Shown here one piece after another: positions 22,313 to 39,320 of a DNA stretch of 39,677 nucleotides. Each line of letters begins with the position of its first letter. The stretch's first letter is position 1. The stretch comes from a bacterium. Lineage in GTDB: Bacteria > Bacteroidota > Bacteroidia > B-17B0 > Aurantibacillaceae. Made by a program: the position numbers and the translations under genes. Where the stretch lies: the NCBI GenBank assembly GCA_029945625.1, contig JAQSCW010000011.1:1-39677 (forward strand), in the 5' to 3' direction. The notes beneath the pieces are model-generated. The model was given only the letters and a program-made list of their open reading frames with translations, was not told where the DNA came from and made no database searches.

Positions 22313-22319
22313 AATTTCT

Positions 22320-22750: not shown

Positions 22751-23038
22751 TTAGCTGAGGTGATTAAGTGAATCAATTTTTTGTTTTGCTTTTGTTGCAA
22801 CTCCTTCTAATTTTGATTCAATCAGTGCTTCCAGCTCTTCCGCTCTTGTTCTAAATGCGTTTGCTTCCTCTTTCAATTGTCGGGTCATGTCATTGGCAAG
22901 ATCTTTTGCGTTTCCAAGAATTTTGCCGCGTGTAGTGCTTCCTTTATCCGGTGCGAATAATACTCCAACTGCCGCTCCTACTAATGTTCCAATTAGCAAT
23001 GCGCCGATCATTTTTTCCGTGTGATGTGAATTTTCCAT
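22751..23038 (-). CDS. YtxH-domain protein
   Basis: A 95-aa protein with one N-terminal transmembrane helix carrying the YtxH signature ('IGALLIGTLVGAAVGVLFAP' then 'DKGSTTRGKI'). An amphipathic helical tail extends to the end. YtxH proteins are general-stress proteins in Bacillus and are common in Bacteroidota, with unclear molecular function. It is the first gene of the YtxH/holin-like/helical/lipoprotein/Dps run and has a TGTAA promoter module about 100 bp upstream. Confidence 0.85.
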   Translation of the reverse strand: MENSHHTEKMIGALLIGTLVGAAVGVLFAPDKGSTTRGKILGNAKDLANDMTRQLKEEANAFRTRAEELEALIESKLEGVATKAKQKIDSLNHLS

Positions 23039-23141: not shown

Positions 23142-23197
23142 CAAAGGTGGGCATTGGCAGTAGCCATTTCATTACAAAGAAGGTAGAAATACTTGCA
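23142..23197 (-). promoter_or_regulatory. TGTAA-repeat promoter module of the YtxH-Dps cluster
   Basis: Minus strand: TGCAA (23193-23197), TGTAA (23172-23176) 21 bp on, then after 25 nt CTTTG (23142-23146) within CACCTTTG. The leader to the ATG at 23038 is about 100 nt. Confidence 0.6.
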
Positions 23198-23335: not shown

Positions 23336-26300
23336 TTAGTTTCCGCTTACAATCATTTTTGCTTTCACGTTGTTTGTCGATCCAGCACTAATGTAATAGA
23401 TACCGGCTTGAAGATTCAACTGTTCAAAGTTTGTTACACCAGGCAGCACTACTTGCACCAATACAATTTGACCCAGGCTGTTGAAAAGTGTCACTGTTGT
23501 TTCAGCACTAACTTCTACATTAAAACTGCCATTGTTTGGATTAGGGAAGAATTTTAATTCGGAAGAATTTACTGCCAGTTCAGTAATATTAGTACAGGCA
23601 ATGACTGTTTGCACGTAAACAGCTTTTCCAAGACAACCCAAGTTATCTTTACCCGTAACAGTATAGGACACGGTAAGTGTAGGAGTAATGGTATTGGTGG
23701 ATGAACTCTGACCATTGCTCCAGGCGTACACCGCTGCACCAGATGCAATGAGCACCACAGCTTGTCCTGCACATGAAGTAGGAGTGGAAGATACAACGTT
23801 TACAACCGGACTAGGGTTTACAGTAACAGTTGATATTGCTGCAAGCGCTGAAACACACCCTTGTGCGCTTGTTCCGGTAACTGAGTAACTTGTTTTAGTA
23901 ATTGGCGTAACCACATTCGAGCCGCTTGAATACGTATAAGTAAAAGCACCGGTAGGAATCATCGTAAATGAGTTTCCTGAACAAACCTGACCGCTATTAA
24001 CTGAAATTATCGGCAAGCTGAAAACAGTAACATTGGAAACTGCGCCAGCTGAAGAAACACATCCAGCGCTATTTGTACCTGATACGGTGTAGGAGGTATT
24101 TACCAAGGGACTTACCGTGGCAGAGCCACTTGAATAGGTGTATGAAATAGCTCCGGTAGGAGTCATTATAAATGATTTTCCTGAACAAATGGTACCATTG
24201 TTTACTGCAATAATTGGCAATGCAATTACAGTTACTGTGGATACAGCAGGTATTGCCGATACACATCCAAGTGAATTTGTTCCTGTAATGGAATAATTGC
24301 TGGTTATGGAAGGACTTACTGTATTTGTACCACTCGAATAGCTATAGGTAAGTGCGCCGGCCGGGATCATGGTAAAGACCTGGTTAGCACAAATTGAGCC
24401 GCTATTTACAGTTAGAAGTGGTAACGCATTTACCGTTACACTAGAGATTGCTGATCCCGTTCCAATGCATCCTAAAGAGTTGGTTCCGGTAACAGAATAA
24501 GTAGTGGTAACTGTTGGAATTACCGTATTAGATCCGCTGGAAAAGGTGTAGGTAGAGGCGCCACCTGGAATCATCGTAAACGTAGTTCCTAAACATACAG
24601 CGCCGCTGTTTACAGTGATAATAGGAACAGAGTTAATATTTACTGAAGAAACCGCAGGCAGTAATGATACGCAACCCGCTGAACTGGTTCCAGTAACGGA
24701 GTAGGAGCTATTTACAATCGGACTCACAGTGGCTGAACCACCGGTTATCGTATAAGTAGAGGCTCCACCGGGAGTGATGGTAAAGATTGATCCGGCACAA
24801 ATGGTACCGCTATTTACACTAATTACCGGAATGGCATTAACGGTTACAGTTGCTATAGCAGCAAGTGCACTAATACAGCCTAACGAATTGGTTCCTGTTA
24901 TTGAATAGGAAGTACTACTTATAGGTAGTATCGTTGAAGTCCCGCTCGAAAACGTGTAAGTCACAGCTCCCGTAGGAACAAGCGTGAATACAGTTCCTGC
25001 ACACAGCGATCCGCTGTTTACAGAGATAGTTGGACCCTGAGATACTGAAATGGTACGAATGGCAGAGTTAGAACACATAGCTGAGGTGGAAGTTCCTACG
25101 GCTGAATAAGTACTCGTTACAGTTGGACTAACTACAATACTATTTGAAATGACACTAGTACTCCATGTGTAGGTTAATGCTCCGCTTGCAGTAAGGGTAG
25201 TACTTCTACCGGCACAAAGTGTATTACTTAAAGCAGCAATACTGATACTGCCTCCTGCTCCTAAAGGAAGGGAAGCTGTCATGGCACTTGTTCCAAAAGA
25301 ACCGTTAGTGGTAAGGGCGCGACCATCAAGGTTCACATTCGGATTCAATAATACCGCTCCATTATTAACAATAAAAGTACCCTTCATGTTTGAATAATTA
25401 TTGATGTTAATAGCACCTTCTATTTTCCAAAACACATTTTTTGATTGGGTGCCATTCATAAGTACCACATTTGCATAAGTTCCGGTACTAAATGCACCAT
25501 TCACTTTAATTACAAAAACGGCATTGGGATTAGTTTGTCCGTCTAAAAACAACGTATCAACAAACGTAACAGCTCCTCCTAAAAGGTAAGTGTGCGGTGT
25601 TAACACGAGTTGGTTTCCGAATTGCGCCGGATATAAAAGTTCAATGTCGTATGGAAGTGTATTTAAATAACCGTAGGCTGTAAGAAGATCTGCAGCTGCC
25701 GCTGAAGTAACTCCATCCGGAATTGGATGGATGGCACCGGTTACATTGAGGGCATTAAATCCTGTTGTTAATCCAACGTTGGTACCAATATCGCCAACTA
25801 CAGTAGTAACACCACTATTTGTAACAGCACCGTTAGAAGAAAATAATTCAAAACATGCAATTGATCCGAGAGTAGGTGTAGCTGGTCCTGTTAAAAAGGG
25901 ACTTCCACAGCCAATTGGCGTATAAGCCAGCACATTATTTACTGTTACGCCTCCCGTTGTTGAAAGTGCGCGCCCCTCAAGTTTTACACCCGAGCTCAGA
26001 TTAATAGCGGCATTATTGGCAATTACAGTTCCTTTCATAATAGTTCCTGCTGCCATGCTTACAAGACCTTCTACTTTCCAAAATACATTACAGGCTTTTG
26101 CGCTGTTTTGTAAAATTACGAGGGCACCGGCTCCTGTTGAAAGTGAACCCGATATTTGAAAGATAAACACCGCATTGGCATTTCCTTGAGCATTTAATGT
26201 TAATGTACCGTTTAATACTGAAGCTGCAGAAATTGAGTAGACACCGGCAGTAAGCGTTCCTCCCAAGGTTGAGGAAGGAAAGAAAGCAGGGACTGTTGCA

Positions 26301-26581
26301 TTTAATTGATTATAAGCCGTAAGTAAATCGGTGGCACAAACCGAACTGGTGACATTATTATCACTCATTACACCGTTTACATTACCAAATCCGGTGCTTG
26401 AACCACTATTGGTTCCAACATTGCCGGTAATGTGCGATGGACCTACATTGGTCACCGCTCCGTTACTTGAGAATAACACAAAATTGGCAGCGGTGCCCAG
26501 GGTAGGAGCCTGCGCGAAAGTCATGTTGGGACCGGAGAGCAGAGCCACCACTGTCGCAATTTTTAGTAATTTAGTTTTCAT
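23336..26581 (-). CDS. Giant surface protein: two DUF3494 domains, eight Ig-like repeats, T9SS tail
   Basis: A 1081-aa protein. The signal peptide ends near residue 24 (TFAQ). Two DUF3494 (ice-binding-like) domains follow at about 28-222 and 237-437. Each has 'NAVFI..' and '..NVFWK.EG' strands and a closing segment such as 'LEGRALSTTGGVTVNN'. Residues ~444-995 are eight Ig-like modules; modules 2-7 are near-identical in layout at 68 aa each ('ISVNSGSLCAGTVFTLVPTG' ... 'SYSITGTNSLGC'). The last ~75 residues are a T9SS type A sorting domain ('FFPNPNNGSFNVEV'). This is a stalked adhesin design: two beta-solenoid heads on a repetitive arm. DUF3494 can bind ice, but many members act as adhesins, and sequence alone does not decide. 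It is a close paralogue of the next gene. Confidence 0.88.
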   Translation of the reverse strand: MKTKLLKIATVVALLSGPNMTFAQAPTLGTAANFVLFSSNGAVTNVGPSHITGNVGTNSGSSTGFGNVNGVMSDNNVTSSVCATDLLTAYNQLNATVPAFFPSSTLGGTLTAGVYSISAASVLNGTLTLNAQGNANAVFIFQISGSLSTGAGALVILQNSAKACNVFWKVEGLVSMAAGTIMKGTVIANNAAINLSSGVKLEGRALSTTGGVTVNNVLAYTPIGCGSPFLTGPATPTLGSIACFELFSSNGAVTNSGVTTVVGDIGTNVGLTTGFNALNVTGAIHPIPDGVTSAAAADLLTAYGYLNTLPYDIELLYPAQFGNQLVLTPHTYLLGGAVTFVDTLFLDGQTNPNAVFVIKVNGAFSTGTYANVVLMNGTQSKNVFWKIEGAININNYSNMKGTFIVNNGAVLLNPNVNLDGRALTTNGSFGTSAMTASLPLGAGGSISIAALSNTLCAGRSTTLTASGALTYTWSTSVISNSIVVSPTVTSTYSAVGTSTSAMCSNSAIRTISVSQGPTISVNSGSLCAGTVFTLVPTGAVTYTFSSGTSTILPISSTSYSITGTNSLGCISALAAIATVTVNAIPVISVNSGTICAGSIFTITPGGASTYTITGGSATVSPIVNSSYSVTGTSSAGCVSLLPAVSSVNINSVPIITVNSGAVCLGTTFTMIPGGASTYTFSSGSNTVIPTVTTTYSVTGTNSLGCIGTGSAISSVTVNALPLLTVNSGSICANQVFTMIPAGALTYSYSSGTNTVSPSITSNYSITGTNSLGCVSAIPAVSTVTVIALPIIAVNNGTICSGKSFIMTPTGAISYTYSSGSATVSPLVNTSYTVSGTNSAGCVSSAGAVSNVTVFSLPIISVNSGQVCSGNSFTMIPTGAFTYTYSSGSNVVTPITKTSYSVTGTSAQGCVSALAAISTVTVNPSPVVNVVSSTPTSCAGQAVVLIASGAAVYAWSNGQSSSTNTITPTLTVSYTVTGKDNLGCLGKAVYVQTVIACTNITELAVNSSELKFFPNPNNGSFNVEVSAETTVTLFNSLGQIVLVQVVLPGVTNFEQLNLQAGIYYISAGSTNNVKAKMIVSGN
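23813..25036 (-). repeat. Tandem 204-bp repeats encoding Ig-like modules
   Basis: Six in-frame units of 68 codons (residues 516-923 of the 1081-aa protein) share a fixed pattern: V-N-S/N-G, a Cys, F, the P-x-G-A-x-[ST]-Y-[ST] segment and 'GCxS' near the end. Flanking units of the same family are more diverged. Such arrays expand and contract by recombination and can vary between strains. Confidence 0.8.
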
Positions 26582-26617: not shown

Positions 26618-26673
26618 CAAAGATGAGAAAGATGAGAAGCTAATCTGTTACATCAGCCATCTGATTTGTTACA
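26618..26673 (-). promoter_or_regulatory. TGTAA-repeat promoter module of the 1081-aa DUF3494 gene
   Basis: Minus strand: TGATGTAACA occurs twice as an exact 10-bp direct repeat 21 bp apart (TGTAA cores 26669-26673 and 26648-26652). After 25 nt comes CTTTG (26618-26622) within CATCTTTG. This is the most perfect pair of half-sites in the window. Confidence 0.7.
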
Positions 26674-26789: not shown

Positions 26790-28703
26790 TTATTTAGTGG
26801 AGATGATTCTGCCCGACTGTAAAATACCGGTTTCATTTGATATGTCATAAAAATACACACCGGCAGGAAAATTGGCTTCCAGTGTGGTTGATTTATCTTT
26901 GATTCGCATAACCAACACCTGCACGCCTATCACGTTGTAAATCCGTAATTCAGAATTGTTGACCTGTGAAACATCCACCATCTTCAAAGTTATTGAGTTT
27001 GAAAAGGGATTTGGAAAAAGACTGGCAGTTTTGTTTCCATTCACAGCAGAAAACACTTCTATGCCTACAGTGCTGCAGTTATTCACTACCAATGAAACAC
27101 TTGAAGAAGTGCTGCTGGGTGCTGCCGACCCACTAACAATAACATTATATAAAGCTGAGGCATCTGCAATAGCTACGGGGCTAATTTTTAATGAAGCACT
27201 TGTGGCTCCCGTTACCGATCCTCCGTTAACGAGGTTTGTACTTCCCTTGCGCCATTGATAAGTAAGCCCGGAACCTGTTGCGACAACTGAAAAAACAGCT
27301 GAACTGTCCTTACAAACTGTTTTGTCAACTGGCTGGGTTACAATAGTTGGAGCGGTGGTTGTGCCGGTATTACATCCTACAGGCATAGTCACATTAATGG
27401 AGTCGGTTGCAAATGCACCGTTTGTGGTAAATGCCCTTCCGTCGAGTTTCATACCCTTATTTAAACTCACAGCGCCATTATTACAAACTATAGTGCCTTT
27501 GAATTTGGAGAAATTATTAATATTCACTGCACCGTCTATTTTCCAAAATACATTTTTAGATTGTGTTCCATTGGTGAGTACAACTTGTGCATAAGTACTG
27601 GTAGAGAGCGCACCGTTTATGGCGATCACAAACACGCCGTTGGGATTATTACCGCCATCAAGAAACAGGGTATCCGTTAAGATTGTTCCTCCATTTAAGC
27701 TATAAGTATGTGGTGTCAGTACTAAACTGTTTCCAAATTGCACGGGATACAGCAGTTCAATATCCATTGGAAGCGTATTTAAATAGGTATATACATTGAG
27801 TAAATCAGCAGCACATGCGCCAGTCGATCCATCAGGAATGGGATGAATAGTACCAGTAATGTTTAAGGGATTAAAACCTGTGGTTAATCCCACATTGGTT
27901 CCCACATCTCCGGTAGCATAGGTGTTACCCGTATTGGTAAGCGCACCATTTCCTGAAAATAAAGCGTAACAAACGGTTGAGGCCAAGTTAGGCGCTGCAG
28001 GTCCTGTAAGCACCGGACTTCCACATCCAATAGGAGTATAAGCAAGTATATTATTAATTGTGATGGCACCGGTTGTTGAAAGGGCTCTGCCTTCTAACTC
28101 AGCACCCGAGCTTATATTGATCGCAGCATTGTTGGCCACAATTGTTCCCTTCATTTTGGTTCCGGCTGCAAGACTTACTAAACCTTCAACTTTCCAGAAA
28201 ACATTACAAGCCTTTGCTCCATTTAGAAGCACCACTTGCGATGCGGCATTAGCTGAGAATGAGCCCTGAATCTTAATAATAAACACTGCATTTGCATTTG
28301 TTTGAGCGTCAAGATTCAAAATTAGATTCATAGTGGAATTACCCGAGATGGAATAAATTCCGGCATTTAGTGTTTGGCCATTACCCAATAATGGAGCCGG
28401 GAAAAAGGTAGCTATAGTGGCGTTGAGCTGGCCATATGCCGTAAGAAGATCGCCCGAACAAAGTGCGCTGGCACCGTTGTTGTTGTTCATCACGCCGTTC
28501 ACGTTGCCGAAACCGGTACTGGAACCGCTGTTTGAGCCAACATGACCGGTAAGATGTGAAAGTCCGGTATTAGTTAGCGCTCCGTTTGAGGTAAACAACA
28601 CAAACCCGGCCGCTGAGCCAAGATTTGGTGCTTGCGCTGATAATGATCCCGCGCAAAGTAGCAATGCTGCGGTACCTATAGAAAAAAGTAGTTTATTTTT
28701 CAT
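26790..28703 (-). CDS. Surface protein: two DUF3494 domains, one Ig-like module, T9SS tail
   Basis: A 637-aa protein. The signal peptide is MKNKLLFSIGTAALLLCAGS plus LSAQA. Two DUF3494 domains (about 28-223 and 236-440) closely follow those of the 1081-aa neighbour, including 'ACNVFWKVEGLVSLAAGTKM' and 'KNVFWKIDGAVNINNFSKFK'. A single Ig-like module ('PVDKTVCKDSSAVFSVVATG') and a T9SS type A domain ('SLFPNPFSNSITLKMV' ... 'GRIISTK') complete it. It looks like the short-armed version of the same adhesin, produced by tandem duplication; the neighbour then expanded its stalk. The two are separately transcribed, with a terminator and a promoter module between them. Confidence 0.88.
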   Translation of the reverse strand: MKNKLLFSIGTAALLLCAGSLSAQAPNLGSAAGFVLFTSNGALTNTGLSHLTGHVGSNSGSSTGFGNVNGVMNNNNGASALCSGDLLTAYGQLNATIATFFPAPLLGNGQTLNAGIYSISGNSTMNLILNLDAQTNANAVFIIKIQGSFSANAASQVVLLNGAKACNVFWKVEGLVSLAAGTKMKGTIVANNAAINISSGAELEGRALSTTGAITINNILAYTPIGCGSPVLTGPAAPNLASTVCYALFSGNGALTNTGNTYATGDVGTNVGLTTGFNPLNITGTIHPIPDGSTGACAADLLNVYTYLNTLPMDIELLYPVQFGNSLVLTPHTYSLNGGTILTDTLFLDGGNNPNGVFVIAINGALSTSTYAQVVLTNGTQSKNVFWKIDGAVNINNFSKFKGTIVCNNGAVSLNKGMKLDGRAFTTNGAFATDSINVTMPVGCNTGTTTAPTIVTQPVDKTVCKDSSAVFSVVATGSGLTYQWRKGSTNLVNGGSVTGATSASLKISPVAIADASALYNVIVSGSAAPSSTSSSVSLVVNNCSTVGIEVFSAVNGNKTASLFPNPFSNSITLKMVDVSQVNNSELRIYNVIGVQVLVMRIKDKSTTLEANFPAGVYFYDISNETGILQSGRIISTK

Positions 28704-28739: not shown

Positions 28740-28795
28740 CAAAGTTGATCTGATAACTTCAAAAAAGTATTACAGAAATTCCGGAAAATATTACA
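28740..28795 (-). promoter_or_regulatory. TGTAA-repeat promoter module of the 637-aa DUF3494 gene
   Basis: Minus strand: TGTAA at 28791-28795 and 28770-28774 (21 bp apart, both extended as TGTAATA), then after 25 nt CTTTG (28740-28744) within CAACTTTG. The spacer holds CCGGA, as at the 38741 promoter. Confidence 0.7.
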
Positions 28796-28876: not shown

Positions 28877-29398
28877 TCAAAGCGAACCCGACATCAGGCG
28901 CGGGAAGAAAACGGCCAAAAGAAAAATACTCAAAATCGACAATCCAATCAGAGACAAGACGATAATGGAGGTGGTTTTGTAAAATGATAATTCTTTCTCA
29001 AGTCTGTTTCGGTAAAACAAATCACCTATGGTTTTTTTCGCCCGTATAAAAGCACCCTCACTCTTGATTATATAATCAAGTGCTTGATGCTTCATGCAGT
29101 TCACTGCCACCTCTAATTCACTTTGCGACGATAACATGACAACTTCTATTAAGGGATTTTTTGCTTTTATGCTGTCCAAAACACGGAGTCCGTTATTGGC
29201 TGCTTCTTTATCGTCACTTAAGTGGTAATCGAGAAAAATGAGTCTGGGATTTTGCCAAAGATTGCTCAGGCATTCATCTCCGGTGGAAAATGATTTTATT
29301 TCAAACTCTGTTTGTTCCTTAAACTGGGTTTCAAGCACCTTTAAAAACAAAGGATCGTCGTCTACCAGAAAAATGGTAATTGGCTTTGAATATTTCAT
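28877..29398 (-). CDS. Membrane-anchored single-domain response regulator
   Basis: A 173-aa protein. Residues 1-135 are a complete receiver domain: acidic pair in 'FLVDDDP', phospho-acceptor Asp57 in 'LIFLDYHL', switch Ser in 'VVMLSSQ' and Lys112 in 'YIIKSE'. Residues 144-166 form one hydrophobic helix ('SIIVLSLIGLSILSIFLLAV') followed by a short tail. There is no DNA-binding or enzymatic output. The receiver is a close duplicate of the one in the adjacent REC-PP2C protein. It may act as a membrane phosphate sink or a docking partner. It lies 72 bp after that gene on the same strand. Confidence 0.88.
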   Translation of the reverse strand: MKYSKPITIFLVDDDPLFLKVLETQFKEQTEFEIKSFSTGDECLSNLWQNPRLIFLDYHLSDDKEAANNGLRVLDSIKAKNPLIEVVMLSSQSELEVAVNCMKHQALDYIIKSEGAFIRAKKTIGDLFYRNRLEKELSFYKTTSIIVLSLIGLSILSIFLLAVFFPRLMSGSL

Positions 29399-29470
29399 GT
29401 GATAATTATTATGTGTTTGTTTTTGTTTTCAATTTGCTAAGTACATGTATAAGCTTTGATTCAAAAGGTG

Positions 29471-30724
29471 TCAAATTCTAATCCCCACAACCGTTACATC
29501 ATCTACCTGCTCCAAATTGGCTTTCCATTTGTTGAAAATGAGACTTAATTTTTCCTTTTGTTTTGCCATGGATAAATGTGCCATGGATACCAACAATTTT
29601 TTCAGTTGTTTTTTCATAAATTTCTTTCCCTTGGGTCCTCCAAACTGGTCCGGCATCCCATCGGTTGTGGCGTAAACAACATCGTTCTTCTGCAGACCAA
29701 TTGTTTTTTGAGTAAACTGAACCTTATCATTATCGTGTTTCCCCACCGGCATTTTATTTGGCAGTAATTCAATGAGTACTTTGTCTCGCACAATCCATAC
29801 CGGATTATTTGCTGCTGCATAGGTGAGACTTTTATTGGCGAAATCAAATGCAATCAAACTGCAATCCATGCCATCACGACCGCCATCACGACTACCGTCG
29901 TGCTTTAGAGTCTCAATAATTTTTAAACGCGCATGATTGAGTATGTCACTGGGTTCGGTTAGCTTTTCAGCCTCAATGGCTTTTTCTACACAGGAAATAT
30001 TTAAGATGCTCATGATGGCACCCGGAACACCATGCCCGGTACTATCTGCAGTAAGGAACATAAACTGATCGTTTAGCATCTTACTGGCCCAATAAAAATC
30101 TCCGCTTACAACGTCTTTGGGCTGATAGAACACAAAGTGCTCTTTTAAATTGTCATCCAAAAGTTTGTTGCTGGGTAGAAAGCTGCGCTGGATATGTTCG
30201 GCATAATTAATACTATCGGTAATCTCTTTATGTTTCTGATCAATTATCTGGCGCTGCTCATCAATTACCTGAATGCGTTCTTCCACCATTTTTTCAAGAA
30301 GGCTGGACGAGGTTTTGTAATAGACAAGTTCGTCTTCTAGTGTTTGTTGGTTAAAAAGAAGCGTGATGGCTTTCTGGATTCTCATAAAAGCGGCTTCACT
30401 TTTGATGATATAATCAAAGGCATCGTGACGCATGCAATTCACGGCCACTTCAATGCGATCCTGTGACGACAACATTAAAACATGAATCTCAGGGTGTGTG
30501 GCCTTTATCTTTTTAAGGATTTTAAGTCCTGTGTAAGCAGGTTGGGCGGGGTTGAGATAATAGTCCAGTACAACGATCCCCGGTTTTTGCCATAGGTTGT
30601 CGAGACATTCTTTACCGGAAGTGAACGTTTTTATCTGGTAGAGGGTGCGATCTTTAAATTGTGTTTCAAGAACTTTTAATTGGAGAGGATCGTCGTCGAC
30701 TAAAAAAATCAAAAAGCTGCGCAT
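29471..30724 (-). CDS. Response regulator with SpoIIE-type PP2C phosphatase output
   Basis: 417 aa from the ATG at 30724, 2 bp after the kinase stop; the TTG at 30730 is less likely. The receiver domain covers residues 1-125 (phospho-Asp54 in 'VVLDYYLN', 'MLSSQ', 'YIIKSE'). A coiled-coil linker follows ('MVEERIQVIDEQRQIIDQKH'). The C-terminal ~230 residues form a SpoIIE/RsbU-type PP2C domain: 'DVVSGDFYWAS', 'DSTGHGVPGAIMS', 'YATTDGMPDQFGG' and 'DDVTVVGI', with the metal-binding Asp present. Such proteins dephosphorylate anti-anti-sigma (STAS) proteins in partner-switching stress pathways. No STAS or anti-sigma gene is in this window. Confidence 0.92.
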   Translation of the reverse strand: MRSFLIFLVDDDPLQLKVLETQFKDRTLYQIKTFTSGKECLDNLWQKPGIVVLDYYLNPAQPAYTGLKILKKIKATHPEIHVLMLSSQDRIEVAVNCMRHDAFDYIIKSEAAFMRIQKAITLLFNQQTLEDELVYYKTSSSLLEKMVEERIQVIDEQRQIIDQKHKEITDSINYAEHIQRSFLPSNKLLDDNLKEHFVFYQPKDVVSGDFYWASKMLNDQFMFLTADSTGHGVPGAIMSILNISCVEKAIEAEKLTEPSDILNHARLKIIETLKHDGSRDGGRDGMDCSLIAFDFANKSLTYAAANNPVWIVRDKVLIELLPNKMPVGKHDNDKVQFTQKTIGLQKNDVVYATTDGMPDQFGGPKGKKFMKKQLKKLLVSMAHLSMAKQKEKLSLIFNKWKANLEQVDDVTVVGIRI

Positions 30725-30726
30725 AA

Positions 30727-32514
30727 TCAAATAGGGTTGGGCCGGCCCGTATCCGGTTCCATGGTTAATAATTCGTGTTGAATAGCGGCATAAGCCAACT
30801 CAAAAGAGTTTTCTAGCTCGATAAACAGGGCGGGCACTCGGTCAATATGCTCTAATTCCCTGCAATATTCTTCTATTTTCTGGGCAGCTAAACCCACTTC
30901 TTTTGGCATTCCCATCAATGCGATCGAGGGTCTCACTTTGTGGCTCCCTGCCTGAAGGCCATGCCAGTCGCAAGCCATCATACAGCGCTTCATTTCCAAA
31001 ACATAGCCCGGGGTTTGTTTCAAAAACATTTGTAATATTTCACTCACAAATTTTGGGTTGTTGGGAGAATGACTTTTTAGGTAGTCGAAATTGCATATGC
31101 TATTATGTTGAGGCACTTCAATTTCGTTTAGTAAAAGTCTGTCTTTCTTTATGAGAGAAGAAATTTTGTTTAAGAGATCAGTTTCATTGATGGGTTTTGA
31201 AACGTATTCGTTCATACCCACTTTTGTGCACTTATCGAGGTCAGCTTTGGTTACATCAGCGGTTAATGCAATGATAGGGATTTTCGATTTCGGCCCGGTC
31301 ATCTGAGTGCGAATAAAACGTGTTGCCTCAAAACCATTCATTTCAGGCATCATCAAGTCCATTAATACAATGTCGTAGTCATTTTTTTGCAATAGTTCTA
31401 TGGCAATTTTTCCATTTTCGGCTGTGTCGGTAGTAAATCCAAAATCATGCAAAATGGTTTGTGCTAAAAATTGGTTAATAGGGATATCCTCCACTAAGAG
31501 AATAGTTAGTTTCCCTAAACTTTGTATTTCTGTAGTATTCACTTTTGATGTCATTTCACTGCTAATTGCTGTTGCACTGGTTTTTTGTAGAGGAAGAGTA
31601 ATTGTAAATACACTGCCCTCATCTAATTTGCTTTGAACCGCTACTGTTCCATTCATAAGTTCAACCAATCGTTTTACTATGCTCAAACCTAAGCCTGTTC
31701 CGCCGAAACGCCGTGCCGTGTCGCTACTGCTTTGTGTGAAGGATTCGAAAATCGTACTTAACTTTTCAGTAGGAATGCCAATACCGGTATCAGAGACAAT
31801 AAATTTTACCGTTGTTTTTTTGTCATCCTCCGATTCAAGTATCACTTTGATGCCAATATTTCCGCCGCTTTCGGTAAATTTGACCGAGTTACTAATGAGA
31901 TTCAAGAGAATCTGATTAATCCTCACGGGATCACCAATTACAATCTCGGGGATCTTGCCATCAAATGATTTGTTTATTTTTAATTCTTTTTCCTGGAATC
32001 GTAATTCAAAGCTCCCCAAAATAGAATTTACCAATTCCGAAAGTTTCAGTTCAGTGGTTTCAATGTTCATTTTCCCGGCCTCTATTTTAGCGAGATCGAG
32101 GATATCGTTGATGAGTACTAGTAGGATGTCACTGGATGTTTTGATGGCATCCAATTGAGGTTTCTGTTTTTCAGTCATCTCATTTCTCAAAAGTATTTTT
32201 GTGAATCCAATAATACCGTTAAGAGGAGTTCTGATTTCGTGACTCATGCTTGCTAAGAATTGTTCTTTCGCCTTTTGCGATTGTTCTGCTTTTTCCTTGG
32301 CATCCTGATAGTCATCCAAAATATTCATAAGAGCGCTCTGATGCGCTTGCTGAGTCATTTTCTCGCGGTCATAGTCATCCAAAATGTTCAAAAGGGCTTT
32401 TTGGGTTTCGGCCTGGTTCTCTTTCTCTTGACGGTATCCTTCAAACAACTTCATTAAATCGTTTTGAATAGTATCTAATTCGATGCCTTCTGCTATGTTC
32501 TTTTGCATGTTCAT
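30727..32514 (-). CDS. Soluble hybrid histidine kinase (HisKA-HATPase-REC-Hpt)
   Basis: A 595-aa protein with no transmembrane segment or sensor domain. Residues 1-80 are a coiled coil with the repeated motif 'LLNILDDY' / 'LMNILDDY'. Then come HisKA with His92 ('SMSHEIRTPLNGIIGF'), HATPase_c ('NLISNSVKFTE', 'DTGIGIP', 'RRFGGTGLGLSIVKRL'), a receiver with Asp386 ('DIVLMDLMMPEMNGFEATRF') and Lys440, and an Hpt domain with His525 ('GSHKVRPSIALMG'). All phosphorelay residues appear present. The adjacent PAS-only protein is the probable sensor, and the downstream receivers are the likely phosphate acceptors. Confidence 0.95.
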   Translation of the reverse strand: MNMQKNIAEGIELDTIQNDLMKLFEGYRQEKENQAETQKALLNILDDYDREKMTQQAHQSALMNILDDYQDAKEKAEQSQKAKEQFLASMSHEIRTPLNGIIGFTKILLRNEMTEKQKPQLDAIKTSSDILLVLINDILDLAKIEAGKMNIETTELKLSELVNSILGSFELRFQEKELKINKSFDGKIPEIVIGDPVRINQILLNLISNSVKFTESGGNIGIKVILESEDDKKTTVKFIVSDTGIGIPTEKLSTIFESFTQSSSDTARRFGGTGLGLSIVKRLVELMNGTVAVQSKLDEGSVFTITLPLQKTSATAISSEMTSKVNTTEIQSLGKLTILLVEDIPINQFLAQTILHDFGFTTDTAENGKIAIELLQKNDYDIVLMDLMMPEMNGFEATRFIRTQMTGPKSKIPIIALTADVTKADLDKCTKVGMNEYVSKPINETDLLNKISSLIKKDRLLLNEIEVPQHNSICNFDYLKSHSPNNPKFVSEILQMFLKQTPGYVLEMKRCMMACDWHGLQAGSHKVRPSIALMGMPKEVGLAAQKIEEYCRELEHIDRVPALFIELENSFELAYAAIQHELLTMEPDTGRPNPI

Positions 32515-32526
32515 GACATCATGTTT

Positions 32527-34506
32527 TTACTCGAGCGTTATGCCAATATGCTTTTTTAACTCTTCGATTTCTTTTTTTAATTCAATCATCTTAATTTCTC
32601 GCCCAACCGTTAACTTTTGAAATTTTTCTAGTTCCGCAATCCGCATAAATTCTTTTTCACGTTCTACTACTTCACGTTCTGCCAGTTTTTTCTGTGCAGT
32701 GACGTCGCGCGCAGCAGCAAACACACCCAATACGTTTCCATTTGTGTCTTTATAAACCGAGGCATTATAAAACACATCGGTGAGTTTTCCATTACTGCTT
32801 CTAATCGTTAGAGAATAGTCTTTTACAAATCCTTGTTTCAACACTTGCTGATAAGCTTCCCGCTCTTTTGGCGGGTCAGTGAAATAGTTTGAAAAGTCGG
32901 TACCTATCAATTGTTCGCGGGGAATTCCCGTTGCAATGACGGATGCTTCGTTCACGTCGGTTATTTTTCCATCCGGACTTATAAATACCAGTGGATCGAG
33001 ATTGGCTTCAATCAAATTACGGGCGTATTGAGAAGCCTGCTTCTGAGCGGTAATATCCCGCGCTACAATTACTACACCCAAAACATTTCCGCGGTCGTCT
33101 TTGTACACCGATCCGTTAAAAAGCACATCGGTTAACTTGCCATTTTTATGTCGCAACGTTAGCGGAGAATCGGCTACTGATCCTTTCGCAAAAACCTCCT
33201 GATACACCTCTCCGGCTTTTTGGGGATTCGTGAAATAGTCGAAGAAGTCAGTGCCAATTAGTTTTTCGCGCGTCATGCCTGTAATATTGGCTAAGGCTTC
33301 GTTCATGTCGGTAATCTTGCCTTCGGTACTTATCGTTACAAGCGGATCGAGACTGGCTTCAATCAAACTCAATGAGTATTTTGAAAGTAGTTTTTGTGCA
33401 GTTACATCTCTCGCTACAATTACAACACCCAAAACGTTTCCGCGGTCATCTTTATAAACCGATCCATTAAATAAGACATCAGTGAGTTTGCCATTTTTAT
33501 GTCGTAATGTAAGAGGAGAGTCTGCCACCGAACCTTTTGCGAAAACTTCCTGATAAACTTCTCTGGCTTTTTGCGGCTCTGTGAAATAGTCGAAGAAATC
33601 GGTTCCGGTTAATTTTTCACGAGGCATACCGGTAATATTGGCGAGCGCTTCATTCATGTCGGTAATCTTGCCCTCGGTACTGATAGTGACGAGTGGATCA
33701 AGACTAGCTTCAATTAAACTCAACGAATATTTTGAAAGTAATTTTTGAGCAGTTACATCACGTGCTACAATAACAACTCCTAAAACACGACCACCGTCAT
33801 CTTTGTACACGGAGCCGTTGAAGAGCACATCGGTAAGTTTTCCATTTTTATGGCGCAAGGTGAGTGGTGAGTCGGCTACTGAGCCTTTTGCAAATACTTC
33901 CTCATATACCTGACGGGCCTTTTGGGGCTCGGTAAAATAGTCAAAGAAGTCAGTATCAGTCATCTTCTCTCTTGTAATGCCGGTAATATTTACGGTGGCA
34001 TTATTCATGTCGGTAATTTTTCCTTCAGTACTAATTGTCATCAGCGGATCTAAGCTGGCCTCGATTAAACTTCTTGCATATTGTGATTCCTGAGTACTTC
34101 CTGTAATATCCCTGGAGATGGTGGCAATTCCTATTACTTTTCCTTGTTCATCGTGTATGGCTGAGAGGGCTAATGAAACGTCTGTTAGTTGTCCATCTTT
34201 CCGAATTCGTTTGGTTTCGTAGTGCGGCACTGTTTGATTCTCACGAATTTGTTGAGCATGCTCAATGAGCTCATTTGGCTGATCTGGAGAAAGTAGAATT
34301 GAACTGTTTTTCCCCAGAATCTCTCCCGCTTTGTAGCCGTATATTTTTTCGGCCCCTTTATTCCAAGATGTGATTATTCCATCAAGCGATTGTGTGTCAA
34401 TGGCGTCATCCGACGAATCAATAATAAGTTTTGAAAGACTACCTTTCTTTGAAAATTCCATCAATTGGTCGAAACCGGAGTGGGAAAGTACTTTTTTTGA
34501 TGCCAT
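32527..34506 (-). CDS. Five-PAS sensor protein without a catalytic domain
   Basis: A 659-aa soluble protein. PAS1 (about 25-140) differs from the rest ('SWNKGAEKIYGYKAGEILGK'). PAS2-PAS5 occupy residues 146-613 as four units of exactly 117 aa. Units 2-4 are nearly identical ('SLIEASLDPLVTISTEGKIT' ... 'GTDFFDYFT' ... 'LRHKNGKLTDVLFNGSVYKD'); unit 5 is more diverged. The C-terminus is a coiled coil (about 605-655). It lacks kinase, cyclase or phosphatase domains, so it must signal through a partner, most simply the kinase encoded 12 bp downstream, which itself has no sensor. Ligand unknown. Confidence 0.92.
   Translation of the reverse strand: MASKKVLSHSGFDQLMEFSKKGSLSKLIIDSSDDAIDTQSLDGIITSWNKGAEKIYGYKAGEILGKNSSILLSPDQPNELIEHAQQIRENQTVPHYETKRIRKDGQLTDVSLALSAIHDEQGKVIGIATISRDITGSTQESQYARSLIEASLDPLMTISTEGKITDMNNATVNITGITREKMTDTDFFDYFTEPQKARQVYEEVFAKGSVADSPLTLRHKNGKLTDVLFNGSVYKDDGGRVLGVVIVARDVTAQKLLSKYSLSLIEASLDPLVTISTEGKITDMNEALANITGMPREKLTGTDFFDYFTEPQKAREVYQEVFAKGSVADSPLTLRHKNGKLTDVLFNGSVYKDDRGNVLGVVIVARDVTAQKLLSKYSLSLIEASLDPLVTISTEGKITDMNEALANITGMTREKLIGTDFFDYFTNPQKAGEVYQEVFAKGSVADSPLTLRHKNGKLTDVLFNGSVYKDDRGNVLGVVIVARDITAQKQASQYARNLIEANLDPLVFISPDGKITDVNEASVIATGIPREQLIGTDFSNYFTDPPKEREAYQQVLKQGFVKDYSLTIRSSNGKLTDVFYNASVYKDTNGNVLGVFAAARDVTAQKKLAEREVVEREKEFMRIAELEKFQKLTVGREIKMIELKKEIEELKKHIGITLE
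32668..34071 (-). repeat. Four tandem 351-bp repeats encoding PAS domains
   Basis: The units begin at residues 146, 263, 380 and 497 of the PAS protein, exactly 117 codons apart. The second and third units are almost identical at the protein level and visibly similar in DNA, which points to recent amplification or gene conversion. Confidence 0.85.
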
Positions 34507-34662
34507 AGCTAAAGTTTGAAAAGATGTATGTACATTAATTTCGGAAGACTCTTATTTTCATTGTGGCTTTACTCATTTGACTAAATACCGGATTTTCATC
34601 TACACTAATATTGCTTTCAAATTTTTACTGATTCAGTGTTTCAAGTTCAAAAACAACTCTTA

Positions 34663-34717
34663 CAAAGTTGCTCATTCGTTAATAGTTGAGATTACACAAG
34701 AGCCTTTAAGTATTACA
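34663..34717 (-). promoter_or_regulatory. TGTAA-repeat promoter module of the PAS/kinase/PP2C operon
   Basis: Minus strand: TGTAA at 34713-34717 and 34692-34696 (21 bp apart), then after 24 nt CTTTG (34663-34667) within CAACTTTG. Transcription would start near 34656, about 150 nt before the PAS-protein ATG. The 16-bp palindrome of the DUF3494 genes is absent. Confidence 0.6.
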
Positions 34718-34939: not shown

Positions 34940-37015
34940 TTACTCTTTAGGAACAATATCCATCACTACTGTGCGGTTATAGAAACGTTCTTCAGGGAGT
35001 CTGTTTTCAAAAGGAGAGAGTTTTTCATCTTCCCCCATGCCTCTTACAACAAAGGTTACCTCTTTCGTTCCCGCTTTCATCAAACTTTGATAAAGTATAT
35101 CTTTTACTTCCTGTGCCCTGGTTAAGGAGAGTTTCAGGTTGTAGTCGGCTGATCCTACAATGTCGGTATAGCCATGGATAGTAACGGTGGCACCTTTTGG
35201 AATTTTGGGTGTAACTATTTCCGAAAGATATTTTTCATAGGTTGGTGAGAGGTTGGATTCGTTGTATTCAAAAATAACGCTAAACCGCATACCTTGTTCT
35301 CGGGTTGGTGGGGTCCACAGTACGATATGCGCTGTAGTTTCCTGTTTAGAGATCTTCCCTTTTTTGTTTTTGGCATACATCACAATCTTGTAATTACCTT
35401 CCGCCTTTGTTCCAAGAATACTTTTTCCCGGCAAACTCAAAGAGCTTTGTGTATAAGGACCAAATTTTTGAACTTTTCCTTTATCGTCGGTGAGTTCCAT
35501 TGTCCACGACGACACAACGTTTTCCGGAGCATTTACTTTAAAGGTCACATAACTATCCAGTGGAGCTGTTTGAGTAACGGAGAGTTCAACCGGCTTAAGT
35601 GGCGCATCGGGCCCACTTTGAAATTCCATTAAAAGGGGAGATGAGCTTGATTCAATGGAGACCCTGTGATTTCCTTCACTCATTAAAAATAAATCTTTTG
35701 TTCCCCCTGTCGCTTCAGAAGGAATCTGTGGTTTTAGCCTTCCTTCTGTAGAAATACGGGAGGCATCAATTCCAAATACAGTAACCAAGTATTTTTTTAC
35801 ACTTTCACTCATCGCTTTTCCCTCCGCAATACTGTATTCGGATGAGCCAACGAGATTAATGGTGCTGGCAGGATATTTGCCCATACGATCACCCAAAATA
35901 TTCAACACATTATAATAGGCAATCATCTGCCTGTCTGATCGGCCCGATAATCTTTTCGGCTTAAATACTTCTAGTTGATCTTCTTTAAAATCCTTTACTT
36001 GATCCTTTTTTAGCAACACGTAACGCGAAGGAATTTCGGAGGACCCTAAGTCAAAAAAGACATAATTTCGGATGGGGAAGGTTTCACGCACACGTCGTTC
36101 TGTGGGAAGGTTTTTTGGAGAATACACTGAAAAGTGAACGCTGGTATCCACAACAAGAACAACCGGAACGATGGCCGGTGCAAGTGCTTCCTTTTGCACA
36201 TTTTTTGCAAGGGCGGTATCTTTCGGATCGTATACATGGGTTTTGCCAAACTTAAATACAATCCCAACTCTCACCGTACTGATGTTCCAAGTCTCAATGG
36301 AGCGGGGAGATTGACCAAAGTAGGGATGATAGGCAGCGAATGGCGAAATCATGAATTGCGTTTTATTTTGTTTCGATGTCATGGCAATATCATAACCCAT
36401 GCCAATTTGCATCGACACAAGTGTGCTTTTCACATCACTAAAATCGCCGGTAACTTCCGGACTCTTCACCTGTTCGGGATAGTCGGGATTAGGTGACTGC
36501 TGAAAAACGAATGACTTGCCGATATTATACGCAAATCGTGGACCACCATAAATATAAAAAGAGGAACCGAATGGAGCGATTCGTAAACTGGGTTCAAGGG
36601 TAACATAACTTACATGTGCGGTTAAATCGGCCGGACAATTGCAGGGAGTGACTATTTGATTGAACTTACCGCTGCGCCCGTCATAACCCGCTTGTATAAT
36701 CACGCCCAACTTTAAATCGGGACGATGAAATTCAACCGAGGGGGCCAGGAATAACCCTATTCCATTACCCTTATGAAACACGCTGGGTACCGTTAGATCA
36801 GAGTTGAGTTTTTGTGTACTGCCATCATAAAAGTTAAAATTGGCACCTGCCGCCACACCAAACCACCACGATGGTTGGACAATGGAATCTTTTTGTACCT
36901 GAGCGAAAGATGAGGCGCAGAGTAAAATGAGAATTCCGGATGCCAATTTTTTGATCTTGAGAATAGAAGATCCTGCTTTGCGGGATTCTTCGTAACATTT
37001 AAATTGAGTTTTCAT
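34940..37015 (-). CDS. OmpA-family outer-membrane protein with large periplasmic region
   Basis: A 691-aa protein. The signal helix is at residues 23-38 ('LASGILILLCASSFAQ') after a polar start. Residues ~45-265 look like an outer-membrane beta-barrel ('WWFGVAAGANFNFYDGSTQK', 'FYIYGGPRFAYNIGKSFVF', 'FMISPFAAYHPYFGQ'). A middle region follows that resembles a degenerate OmpA-like fold ('YNVLNILGDRMGKYPASTIN'), then a beta segment, and a C-terminal OmpA/MotB peptidoglycan-binding domain (about 575-685: 'ATVTIHGYTDIVGSADYNLK' then 'LSLTRAQEVKDIL'). It starts 4 bp after the DUF3494 lipoprotein gene, so the pair is an operon and may form one envelope complex. Confidence 0.88.
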   Translation of the reverse strand: MKTQFKCYEESRKAGSSILKIKKLASGILILLCASSFAQVQKDSIVQPSWWFGVAAGANFNFYDGSTQKLNSDLTVPSVFHKGNGIGLFLAPSVEFHRPDLKLGVIIQAGYDGRSGKFNQIVTPCNCPADLTAHVSYVTLEPSLRIAPFGSSFYIYGGPRFAYNIGKSFVFQQSPNPDYPEQVKSPEVTGDFSDVKSTLVSMQIGMGYDIAMTSKQNKTQFMISPFAAYHPYFGQSPRSIETWNISTVRVGIVFKFGKTHVYDPKDTALAKNVQKEALAPAIVPVVLVVDTSVHFSVYSPKNLPTERRVRETFPIRNYVFFDLGSSEIPSRYVLLKKDQVKDFKEDQLEVFKPKRLSGRSDRQMIAYYNVLNILGDRMGKYPASTINLVGSSEYSIAEGKAMSESVKKYLVTVFGIDASRISTEGRLKPQIPSEATGGTKDLFLMSEGNHRVSIESSSSPLLMEFQSGPDAPLKPVELSVTQTAPLDSYVTFKVNAPENVVSSWTMELTDDKGKVQKFGPYTQSSLSLPGKSILGTKAEGNYKIVMYAKNKKGKISKQETTAHIVLWTPPTREQGMRFSVIFEYNESNLSPTYEKYLSEIVTPKIPKGATVTIHGYTDIVGSADYNLKLSLTRAQEVKDILYQSLMKAGTKEVTFVVRGMGEDEKLSPFENRLPEERFYNRTVVMDIVPKE

Positions 37016-37019
37016 GTTG

Positions 37020-38741
37020 TTAAGGCTTATAAATTTTGTTTGTACTTGTCATAACTACCGCGCCGTTAATGGCCAGCATTCTGCCTACTGCAACAGCACC
37101 TGAATTCATGGTAATGGAAGTAAGGGCCAATACATTTCCTTTAAAGGAAGTAAAGCCACCTATTGTTGCCGAACTTCCGGTTTGCCAGAAAATATTTTGA
37201 GCCTGAGCACCTCCTGCCAGTATAATGTTTCCGCCGGCGCCACCAACTGTAGTGAAAGCAGAGGCAACTTGAAAGATCCAATACGCGTTAGGATTTCCCT
37301 GTGCATCCAAGGTGAGATCACCCGATTGAATCAGTAGGGAGGACGTCGATTTATATATTCCGGGAGCTAAAGTAGTTCCACCAAGATCGCCATTTACAGA
37401 TACCGGAGCAGGGGAAGTAGCTCCTTCAGCAGCGAGATAGGCATTGGTTAAATCTTGTTTAGCGGCAATTAACATGGCGGCCACTCCGGGTGGATTAATA
37501 TCGTCGGAGGCATAAATGGCCCCATTAATAATAATGGCGGGTGGGAAGCCGGTAACAGAAGAACGAACACCGGGACTGATACCCACATCAAGATCGTGAA
37601 TCTCACTGAAGCCGGCATTATTACTGATCCCAACTCCTGCCAATATACCAAAACGGAGCGCTGAATTTAAATTGATAGGAGGTGGTGATAAGGTTTGAGT
37701 TCCTGTACTGAAACTCCAGGAATAATCAGCCGCTAAAGGAATGCCCAATGGATTTTTAGCACCTGTGGTAATAGTTGCCACGTAGGTGGTGCCACTTGTT
37801 AGTGGGCCACTAGGGGTAAAGAAAGCAGTTGTTCCGGCATAGGTAACGATTCCGGTAATTGAAGTGCTTCCGTTTTTAAGCAGGAACGTAGCGTTAGAAA
37901 GCGTTGTTCCATCCATGAACTGACTGAAGTTCGCACTAATCACTTTGTTAAGCACCACATTGGTTTCGTTAGTTATTGGACTTGTAGAAATTACTGTAGG
38001 CGCAATATTTGTGGAATCGGTTGTGAACACCCAGTTGTAATTTGTTGCAAGTGTATTTCCTGTGGGGTCTTTTGCTGCGGTAGTAATGGTGGCACTGTAG
38101 GTTTTACCGGCAATTAAATTAGCTGAAGGTGCAAATGAAGCGGTAACTCCTGAATAGTTTACCAGGCCTGCAATAGACGTGGAGCCCTGTTTGATTAGAA
38201 AACTGCCGGCATTAATGCTGGTGGAATCCATTTTTTCACTAAAGGTAGCAGTCACAATTTTTCCTACTGCTACTTTAATCGCATTGTTGATAGGATCAGT
38301 AGAAATAACAGTGGGACGAATCGAATCTACAAATCCGGTGGTAAACGACCATACATAATCGGTTTGAAGCGCGTTACCGTTAGGATCTTTAACTGAACTT
38401 GAAACGCGACCGGTATAAGTGGTGCTAGCAGTTAATTTCTTGGTGGGAGTGAAATTCATGGTGACACCAGCTGGGTCGTAAACAAGTGTTCCTTGAACTG
38501 TTATATCACCAATAAGGGAAAATGCTGCGGGCACAATCGTGGCCGGATTCATTTTTTCATTAAAAGTAACACTGATCATTTTATTTAGAGGCACTCCCGT
38601 TTCATTTCTAACAGGATTGGTGGATACCACGAGGGGACATACCCCCGCAATGGCTACATAGGTATCTTTCTTACAGGAATCTGTAAAAATTGCCAGAAGC
38701 AGTGCTATCGCTACTGTGATCCGGGAGGTTTTTGTTTTCAT
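37020..38741 (-). CDS. Lipoprotein with three Big_5 domains and a DUF3494 domain
   Basis: A 573-aa protein. The signal MKTKTSRITVAIALLLAIFT ends at a lipobox-like 'TDSC' followed by KKD, so it is probably a surface-exposed lipoprotein. Three Ig-like Big_5 domains (about 35-140, 143-245 and 250-355) each have 'P.NNA..V....I...FSEKMD' and '...Y.WSFTT' elements. Residues ~360-573 are one DUF3494 domain ('GDLTLDAQGNPNAYWIFQVA', 'QNIFWQTGSSATIGGFTSFK', 'GAVAVGRMLAINGAVVM'), closer to classic ice-binding proteins than those in the two T9SS paralogues. Unlike those, it is lipid-anchored with no T9SS tail. It shares their promoter layout and is co-transcribed with the OmpA-family gene. Confidence 0.9.
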   Translation of the reverse strand: MKTKTSRITVAIALLLAIFTDSCKKDTYVAIAGVCPLVVSTNPVRNETGVPLNKMISVTFNEKMNPATIVPAAFSLIGDITVQGTLVYDPAGVTMNFTPTKKLTASTTYTGRVSSSVKDPNGNALQTDYVWSFTTGFVDSIRPTVISTDPINNAIKVAVGKIVTATFSEKMDSTSINAGSFLIKQGSTSIAGLVNYSGVTASFAPSANLIAGKTYSATITTAAKDPTGNTLATNYNWVFTTDSTNIAPTVISTSPITNETNVVLNKVISANFSQFMDGTTLSNATFLLKNGSTSITGIVTYAGTTAFFTPSGPLTSGTTYVATITTGAKNPLGIPLAADYSWSFSTGTQTLSPPPINLNSALRFGILAGVGISNNAGFSEIHDLDVGISPGVRSSVTGFPPAIIINGAIYASDDINPPGVAAMLIAAKQDLTNAYLAAEGATSPAPVSVNGDLGGTTLAPGIYKSTSSLLIQSGDLTLDAQGNPNAYWIFQVASAFTTVGGAGGNIILAGGAQAQNIFWQTGSSATIGGFTSFKGNVLALTSITMNSGAVAVGRMLAINGAVVMTSTNKIYKP

Positions 38742-38777: not shown

Positions 38778-38832
38778 CAAAGAGAAGACTTTCAACAGGC
38801 TTCTTCTTACATAAAATCCGGTATAAGTTACA
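38778..38832 (-). promoter_or_regulatory. TGTAA-repeat promoter module of the Big_5/DUF3494-OmpA operon
   Basis: Minus strand: ATGTAA at 38828-38833 and 38807-38812 (21 bp apart), then after 24 nt CTTTG (38778-38782). The spacer between the half-sites contains CCGGA, as at 28770-28795. Confidence 0.7.
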
Positions 38833-38974: not shown

Positions 38975-39232
38975 TTAACTTTGATGGGTATGATGTTTTA
39001 CATCTTCACGTTGCGCCTCTGTTGCCAAGTCGTGGTGACCTTGAGCAGTGATAGTACTTTTAGCTGCCTTGTCATGTTCACCAGCCTCGTGGTGCTTTGC
39101 AGCTTCAAGATGGTATTTTGCCGCCTCTTGTAAATGCGTAGCGATCTTTTTGTGATTTTCAATGCCTTTTTGATTGTCGGCATGCGATACCGGTGCCTTT
39201 TCAGTTTTGATAGGCGTGATGCTGTTTGTCAT
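38975..39232 (-). CDS. Small Ala/His-rich helical protein, paralogue of the 95-aa protein at 15479-15766
   Basis: An 85-aa soluble protein. After a polar N-terminus ('MTNSITPIKTEKAPVSHADN') the core has regularly spaced His and Ala ('IATHLQEAAKYHLEAAKHHE', then 'AGEHDKAAKS' and 'GHHDLATEAQ'), with 13 His in 85 residues. It matches the 95-aa protein motif for motif. Two amphipathic helices are likely, and metal binding is conceivable from the His content. It has its own terminator and a promoter module with one degenerate half-site. Confidence 0.78.
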   Translation of the reverse strand: MTNSITPIKTEKAPVSHADNQKGIENHKKIATHLQEAAKYHLEAAKHHEAGEHDKAAKSTITAQGHHDLATEAQREDVKHHTHQS

Positions 39233-39265: not shown

Positions 39266-39320
39266 CAAAGTTGAGTAAATCTGGAGTGGGATTTTTGTAC
39301 TCCCTCATCTAAATCTTACA
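39266..39320 (-). promoter_or_regulatory. Degenerate TGTAA-repeat promoter module of the 85-aa protein gene
   Basis: Minus strand: TGTAA at 39316-39320, TACAA at 39295-39299 (expected second half-site, two mismatches, 21 bp away), then after 24 nt CTTTG (39266-39270) within CAACTTTG. One arm of the DUF3494-type palindrome (TTTCAC) lies exactly 16 nt before the ATG. Confidence 0.4.

Follow-up and report, generated by a model that had tools for sequence, protein, structure and literature searches.

The window analyzed here is a stretch of 39,677 nucleotides from a Bacteroidota contig (JAQSCW010000011.1, referred to as C11). A four-gene signalling operon lies on its minus strand at 28877–34506. 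The first gene (32527–34506) codes for a PAS-only protein of 659 aa, with five PAS stretches in the domain search and a C-terminal tail that reads as coiled-coil-like. After a gap of 12 bp it is followed by genes for a hybrid histidine kinase without a sensor domain (30727–32514; HisKA, HATPase_c, and Response_reg), a REC-PP2C phosphatase (29471–30730; Response_reg and SpoIIE), and a REC-TM protein (28877–29398; Response_reg in the domain search and a hydrophobic C-terminal segment by reading), all on the minus strand. The REC domain of the kinase is followed by a probable Hpt, which scored below threshold (18.3 bits versus a Pfam cut-off of 24.6) and has an SHKVRP motif beginning at residue 524. 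Separate Hpt proteins in two related loci, L112 and L105, score above the Pfam cut-off. Judged by motif positions, the His-Asp-His-Asp residues of a multistep phosphorelay are all present, and phosphotransfer is predicted. Reading of the REC-PP2C sequence located both the phospho-acceptor Asp and the metal-site motifs. The domain search agrees with the operon composition given in an original prediction made from this DNA (a PAS-only sensor, a hybrid kinase with Hpt, a REC-PP2C, and a REC-TM protein), with the Hpt sub-threshold. It identified no DNA-binding domain in the four proteins, and no PhyR-type REC with a sigma-like domain, NepR, or EcfG among them.

The second PAS repeat of the PAS-only protein, 117 aa long, shares 97% identity with PAS domains of another family, in L112, and the third codon positions are just 41% identical despite this protein identity. 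Its median identity across 86 loci is 78%, and it is far better conserved than the window kinase, which is 46% identical to the L112 kinase. No solved structure close to this repeat was found (best E = 5e-4).

The promoter of the operon is present at 34717–34663 on the minus strand, where the original prediction had placed it, with paired TGTAA sites (34717 and 34696) and CTTTG (34667–34663). The layout is TGTAA-N16-TGTAA-N25-TTTG, with TTTG at 34666–34663. Genome comparison added a GTGA located 8 bp upstream of the first TGTAA as an independent element. A first scan of the window used ten half-site letters and a TTTG 20–39 bp past the start of the second half-site, and it yielded 11 matches compared to none in the reversed window (0–1 mismatch in half-sites and TTTG). 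In that scan, weaker matches carry no weight because they are about as numerous in the reversed control (13 versus 12 with two mismatches, 83 versus 85 with three). A GTGA-anchored scan (at most two mismatches of 14, TTTG at 29–32) identified nine sites in the window and none in its reverse. Three of the nine match perfectly (14/14): the signalling-operon site and those at 28795 and 26673. Genome-wide, an exact TGTAA-N15–17-TGTAA alone is barely enriched (63 versus 48 in the control), and the signal of the module comes from the downstream TTTG, the GTGA, and local clustering.

Six minus-strand sites precede genes with matches or recognizable families. These genes code for an 85-aa protein matching seven targets elsewhere (site 39266–39320, gene 38975–39232), a DUF3494/Big_5 protein followed by an OmpA protein (site 38778–38832, genes 37020–38741 and 34940–37015), two DUF3494 proteins (site 28740–28795, gene 26790–28703; site 26618–26673, gene 23336–26581; both with 0 mismatches of 14), a YtxH protein (site 23142–23197, gene 22751–23038), and a small membrane protein that is 63% identical to a DUF5670/lmo0937 target of locus L250 (site 16564–16618, gene 16328–16483). 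Behind YtxH, the putative transcript may extend over four further genes: a holin-X-like gene (22320–22679), gene 21911–22342, a lipoprotein gene (21443–21895), and a ferritin/Dps-like gene (20862–21335). Two sites stand before genes with no blastp match among target proteins elsewhere, namely an OMP beta-barrel gene (site 20692–20747, gene 19774–20523, minus strand) and a small gene on the plus strand (site 14319–14374, gene 14460–14714). By reading, a tenth, variant site on the plus strand (15410–15463) has CTTG in place of TTTG and precedes gene 15479–15766, which matches seven targets elsewhere. A promoter module common to the operon and to stress and surface genes, as had been proposed, is thus borne out by nine sites versus none in the reversed control, and by the tenth with CTTG.

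Hairpins like GTGAAAATTAATTCAC were seen by reading right behind the presumed start site, downstream of TTTG, at 26673, 28795, and 38832. A hairpin at that place occurs at 20 of 228 sites elsewhere; a control region gave 7 of 228, and shuffling gave 19 of 4,560.

A REC-domain search of relatives (E = 1e-18) led to L112, where the motif directly precedes the gene of a 188-aa AraC-type protein; genes for a PAS-HK-REC-Hpt kinase and a REC of 144 aa come next. An anchored motif was derived from the window, L105, and L112. Across 228 unique sites, with the window left out, the motif is longer and reads GTGAATnATGTAAC-N15-TGTAAC, then cAnCTTTG, with TTTG 30 or 31 bp past the start of the second TGTAA. 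The half-sites and TTTG are conserved at these sites, and the intervening stretch is much less so. The sites of the window are less conserved than those elsewhere. Nineteen further stretches from genomes with an orthologue of the AraC gene (339,646 b) contain 65 sites versus one in the reversed control, and 13 loci from genomes without an orthologue, picked by REC homologues (218,824 b), contain none. No convincing site was found in L104, L111, and L116, three of the first stretches taken from orthologue genomes, the last of them on contig C41 of the genome of the window.

The AraC-type protein is ~190 aa long. Its N-terminal part has an HMA-like fold that lacks the CxxC metal site, and its C-terminal part a double HTH. 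The two-HTH AraC DNA-binding domain was confirmed by a match to HTH_18 (60.6 bits, cut-off 33.6, E = 1.8e-16). A profile search of the species collection identified at least 581 relatives of this protein, and the best 80 were kept. Labels among the matches listed include Flavobacterium, Bacteroidales, Chitinophagaceae, Cytophagales, and others, with one Ignavibacteria MAG. A structure model was based on 41 of the 80 loci; of the 45 selected for it, L243, L276, L277, and L216 were left out for stops in the chosen range. The model (pLDDT 86) matches AraC/MarA-type structures (MarA, AraC, and Rob) at E values of 3e-5 to 1e-3, and its HMA part has an Atx1-like match (E = 0.04). Among 42 loci, the AraC gene presumably starts with TTG in 30 and with ATG in 10, and the TTG starts may represent deliberately weak translation. 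Paralogues of the AraC gene directly adjoin CsbD genes at G042:C19:57403-58204 and G082:C6:45617-46952.

The best 80 of the at least 581 AraC loci, found by the AraC protein alone, contain 170 sites in 1,290,743 b versus 0 in the reversed control, with at least one site in 64 loci; the 80 include four or more contigs already covered above. The TTTG offset is 31 in 141 of the 170 sites, 30 in 27, and 32 in two. A site stands in front of 32 of 78 AraC genes (0 in the control), and 29 of these 32 lie 96–110 bp before the conserved Met. At this stringency the other 46 AraC genes have no site in front. Sixteen of the 80 loci, including Arcticibacter L277, have no site in reach, and the motif there has therefore drifted or sits elsewhere. 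Six site-less loci are labelled Flavobacterium (L206, L214, L222, L232, L248, and L273), and all of these except L273 are records other than MAGs. The gene order AraC, PAS-HK-REC-Hpt, single REC is found in 64 of the 68 loci whose downstream sequence reaches 4.8 kb or more. Of the four exceptions, L275 has no kinase, and the kinase and REC are both missing from L252, L276, and L277. AraC, kinase, and REC fall on separate stretches in the 64 loci, and they were read as separate genes in L112 and L116.

The genome of the window has the same operon on contig C41, with two tandem AraC genes, the kinase, and the REC. Its closest AraC orthologue (C41:3964–4509, 68% identity) contains an in-frame TAG, so either the intact tandem paralogue on C41 (59%) or the gene at C7:32218 (55%) would have to act. 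A degenerate site (TACAAC, TATAAC, CTTCG; by reading) precedes the stop-bearing gene. No end overlap was found between C41 and the window contig, which neither proves nor excludes that they are adjacent.

One hundred genomes (relatives plus that of the window) were sorted by AraC match into 23 with an orthologue (>270 bits), 34 with weaker homologues only, and 43 with none (no match at E = 1e-25). In group comparisons that, apart from one split within the genus, ignore kinship, the 13-base motif GTGAAYNATGTAA versus its control was counted 160 versus 62 times in the orthologue genomes, 66 versus 61 times in those with weaker homologues, and 57 versus 81 times in those without a match, and the excess is confined to the orthologue group. 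The within-genus split gave mean counts of 5.3 with an orthologue (control 3.0, n = 13) versus 1.9 (control 2.1, n = 27; P = 2e-5, uncorrected for kinship). CsbD is present in 20 of 23 orthologue genomes versus 13 of 77 others (P = 1e-9), the latter comprising 10 of 34 with a weaker homologue and 3 of 43 with none. Of the 26 CsbD genes in orthologue genomes, 18 have a site upstream and eight have none, versus 3 of 16 with a site elsewhere. Two of these three belong to the 13 CsbD genes of the weaker-homologue group; they lie in G082, next to an AraC gene with 56% identity. The third belongs to the three CsbD genes of the group with no AraC match (G009) and is weak, with two mismatches. The genome of the window has a CsbD gene with an upstream site on contig C2.

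Because the AraC, HK, and REC genes co-occur as one block, co-occurrence alone cannot single out AraC. The paired sites could be read by another DNA-binding protein, LytTR or other, with the AraC gene being only a target. LytTR proteins bind direct repeats ~21 bp apart, and the genome of the window has ten LytTR genes, but a kinase gene stands beside nine of the ten (by reading) and none is in the window. Within the conserved three-gene operon, only the AraC gene codes for a DNA-binding protein, and across genomes it is accompanied by CsbD and the motif. LytTR, a first candidate on account of the 21-bp repeats, was displaced by this link, and a reader of the sites other than AraC appears improbable. 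The original prediction had reasoned that the regulator must be encoded elsewhere and had suggested a LytTR or other protein co-occurring with the motif; the co-occurring gene is of the AraC type. On sequence grounds, the missing regulator is very probably the ~190-aa AraC-type protein, whose gene lies outside the window next to that of its own sensor kinase.

An ORF is located downstream of 225 of the 228 sites. The target was taken as the ORF with the best-scoring downstream start, which gave 48 blastp clusters, of which 24 have at least two sites, and some one-member clusters are therefore doubtful. One representative per cluster was scanned for families. The largest clusters are the DUF3494/Big_5 type (48 sites), the AraC gene (39), CsbD (17), and OmpA (15), followed by a lipoprotein (11), an unknown 123-aa type (10), REC proteins (8), and the 85-aa protein (7). 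Small clusters include Thivi_2564 (4), YceI (3), DUF5670/lmo0937 (3), YtxH (2), BON (2), MlaE-like (2), Dps-like (1), and a universal stress protein, Usp (1); Dps, YceI, and Usp were assigned by NCBIfam similarity below equivalog cut-offs, and MlaE by similarity to a gene of the window. The CsbD, YtxH, and Dps families are linked to SigB. Within 12023–39232 of the window, 17 of 25 genes match target proteins elsewhere (blastp, some at domain level only), or 13 of 21 without the four operon genes, and none of the eight listed genes before 12023 does. Families common to the window and elsewhere are DUF3494, OmpA, YtxH, Dps-like, and lmo0937-like. At the REC level, with about 30% identity, the REC-TM protein of the operon matches eight REC proteins whose genes are motif targets at other loci.

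The distribution of these targets bears on whether a regulon exists at all. Duplication of mobile DUF3494/PAS genes could have spread copies of the promoter that share no regulator, as DUF3494/Ig-type genes stand behind 48 of the 225 sites with an ORF and the genes cluster. Such a spread is hardly conceivable given sites before 48 gene clusters, half of them with at least two sites, and half-sites and TTTG that are conserved when the stretch between them is much less so.

Arrangements like the window operon were found in relatives. The operon in G042 (L183) codes for PAS-only, HK-REC, Hpt, REC-TM, and REC-PP2C proteins, with the order kept. Its REC-PP2C is 33% identical to that of the window. 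The site at L183:11472 carries TTTA instead of TTTG and a single mismatch in the half-sites, and the operon adjoins DUF3494 targets. The predicted split of sensor and kinase over two proteins, encoded 12 bp apart in the window, holds and recurs in G042. G053 (L105) has the kinase, Hpt, REC-TM, and REC-PP2C genes at a contig start, with the promoter region off the contig. G078 has a PAS-kinase, an Hpt, and a REC-TM-like gene with a site (L112:-11460, two half-site mismatches) and no PP2C there. These arrangements indicate an old origin for the split sensor and for the REC-PP2C/REC-TM pair, and the window operon looks like a conserved accessory branch that is present in two further genomes. The feedback arrangement that had been proposed is supported, as the signalling operon is itself a member of the regulon, with sites also at the kinase operons of G042 and G078.

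Most fetched loci have the motif and lack the split sensor and the REC-PP2C/REC-TM pair nearby. The original prediction had counted the motif in relatives without the operon as evidence against itself, and as far as the fetched stretches extend, such relatives exist. Loci of this kind would also suit an operon that is a passive target only (for example, a photo- or redox-sensing output) and exerts no feedback on the regulon. However, the kinase and REC of the operon are homologous to those of the AraC operon, with ~44–51% identity to AraC-operon kinases among the matches listed and 50% identity of the window REC to the REC on C41, and a purely passive role is unlikely. We consider it likely that the window operon belongs to a widespread Bacteroidota regulon run by the AraC protein and a PAS phosphorelay, in which it forms a second branch. 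The operon would share the promoter of the module because all module genes appear to belong to one Bacteroidota stress regulon.

RsbU-type partner switching, which the original prediction had put forward from the PP2C output as control of the module, fared less well. By this account, the REC-PP2C would dephosphorylate a STAS antagonist and free an alternative sigma factor that recognizes the module. The PP2C motifs are intact, and of the STAS and anti-sigma candidates that the prediction had suggested looking for, the genome has one each: a small RsbW-like ATPase of 140 aa on contig C18 and a stand-alone STAS protein of 116 aa on contig C2, with neither gene on the window's contig. A full-length REC-PP2C occurs in only 2 of 101 loci compared, though sites abound, and paired repeats at 21 bp plus a TTTG box of the housekeeping type give the promoters an activator-type look. 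When compared with an alternative-sigma reading, the sequences of the module promoters combine a primary-sigma-like TTTG -7 element with activator-type repeats. The presence of a PP2C says little because its relatives are greatly expanded in this genome (at least 17 matches, 18 of 32 candidates scored). Control of the module by partner switching is therefore very unlikely. A PP2C partner switch may be present as an accessory, since the RsbW-like ATPase and the STAS protein exist in the genome. The expansion also made the whole REC-PP2C useless as an orthologue query; the REC part was used instead, and that search missed the REC-PP2C of G042, which turned up later.

The repeats keep an exact 21-bp period across sites, and binding of the AraC protein to them is predicted. 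A 21-bp direct repeat beside a TTTG -7 box fits an AraC-type activator over the -33 region. TAnnTTTG is described as the -7 box of the primary sigma factor of the phylum in two papers (PMC7366714, PMC12632263), and another gives predicted direct-repeat motifs 21 bp apart on average for Bacteroides HTCS regulators with AraC-type domains (PMC3878776). The AraC protein would bind the paired GTGAATnATGTAAC-N15-TGTAAC sites head to tail, at a distance of two helical turns. The proximal one would overlap the -33 region, and at the -7 box, which is weak (cAnCTTTG), the protein would activate the housekeeping sigma factor; the position of the sites favors activation rather than repression. From architecture and target identity, we infer binding, activation, and the stress label.

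The PAS-HK-REC-Hpt kinase and the single-domain REC probably switch the AraC protein on when the PAS domains sense stress, with phosphate putatively flowing in that direction. The single REC is the obvious candidate for the link to AraC, and in Sphingomonas a single-domain REC takes part in the phosphorelay to the general stress response, according to PMC5898713. Besides genes for general stress and the envelope, the signalling genes would themselves be targets, and the circuit would therefore be self-amplifying. The window operon would be a second, duplicated phosphorelay branch and also a target, and its split PAS sensor, kinase, REC-PP2C, and REC-TM protein may tune the response through gain, shut-off, or membrane tethering.

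The proposed regulon resembles several known systems in part. Bacteroides HTCS regulators share the kinase, receiver, and AraC-type DNA-binding functions and direct repeats ~21 bp apart (PMC3878776). Unlike the regulon described here, an HTCS is one protein with a periplasmic sensor that controls polysaccharide loci, whereas here at least three proteins share the functions, Hpt and PAS domains take part, AraC carries an HMA-like domain, and the genes controlled are dispersed stress and envelope genes. The double HTH and a site overlapping the -33 region are like those of AraC/MarA/SoxS-type activators, which differ in having neither an N-terminal HMA/Atx1-like fold without CxxC nor conserved phosphorelay neighbors. 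In the alphaproteobacterial Pak-SdrG-PhyT-PhyR-EcfG system, several kinases, a single-domain REC, and a phosphorelay likewise lead to one general stress regulon (PMC5898713), but the output there is the sigma factor EcfG and here an AraC protein. A SpoIIE-family PP2C and the CsbD, YtxH, and Dps target families are shared with Firmicutes SigB/RsbU, from which this regulon differs in having promoters of another type and a PP2C that is not conserved with the motif.

Among the papers listed by literature searches, none describes in title or abstract the regulon, the AraC protein, its targets, DUF3494 regulation, or a stress master regulator in Bacteroidota. To our knowledge, the phylum has no established counterpart of RpoS, SigB, or EcfG as a master regulator of general stress. 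The gene family, the operator letter by letter, the signalling operon, and the target list are now described, also in named non-MAG records. Environmental species with the AraC operon and sites in a named record include Flavobacterium aquariorum (L220), F. fluvii (L228), Sunxiuqinia indica (L241), and Emticicia aquatica (L282). DUF3494 ice-binding-like proteins and unknown small stress proteins gain a regulatory context, and the expansion of PP2C relatives alongside one RsbW-like ATPase and one STAS protein raises the question of PP2C substrates. We tentatively propose, at somewhat less than even confidence, that the general stress response of Bacteroidota is a widespread self-amplifying regulon with one HMA-AraC activator and a conserved PAS phosphorelay, and that the window operon is a second control branch. 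If true, the AraC protein would do in Bacteroidota what SigB, RpoS, or EcfG do elsewhere.
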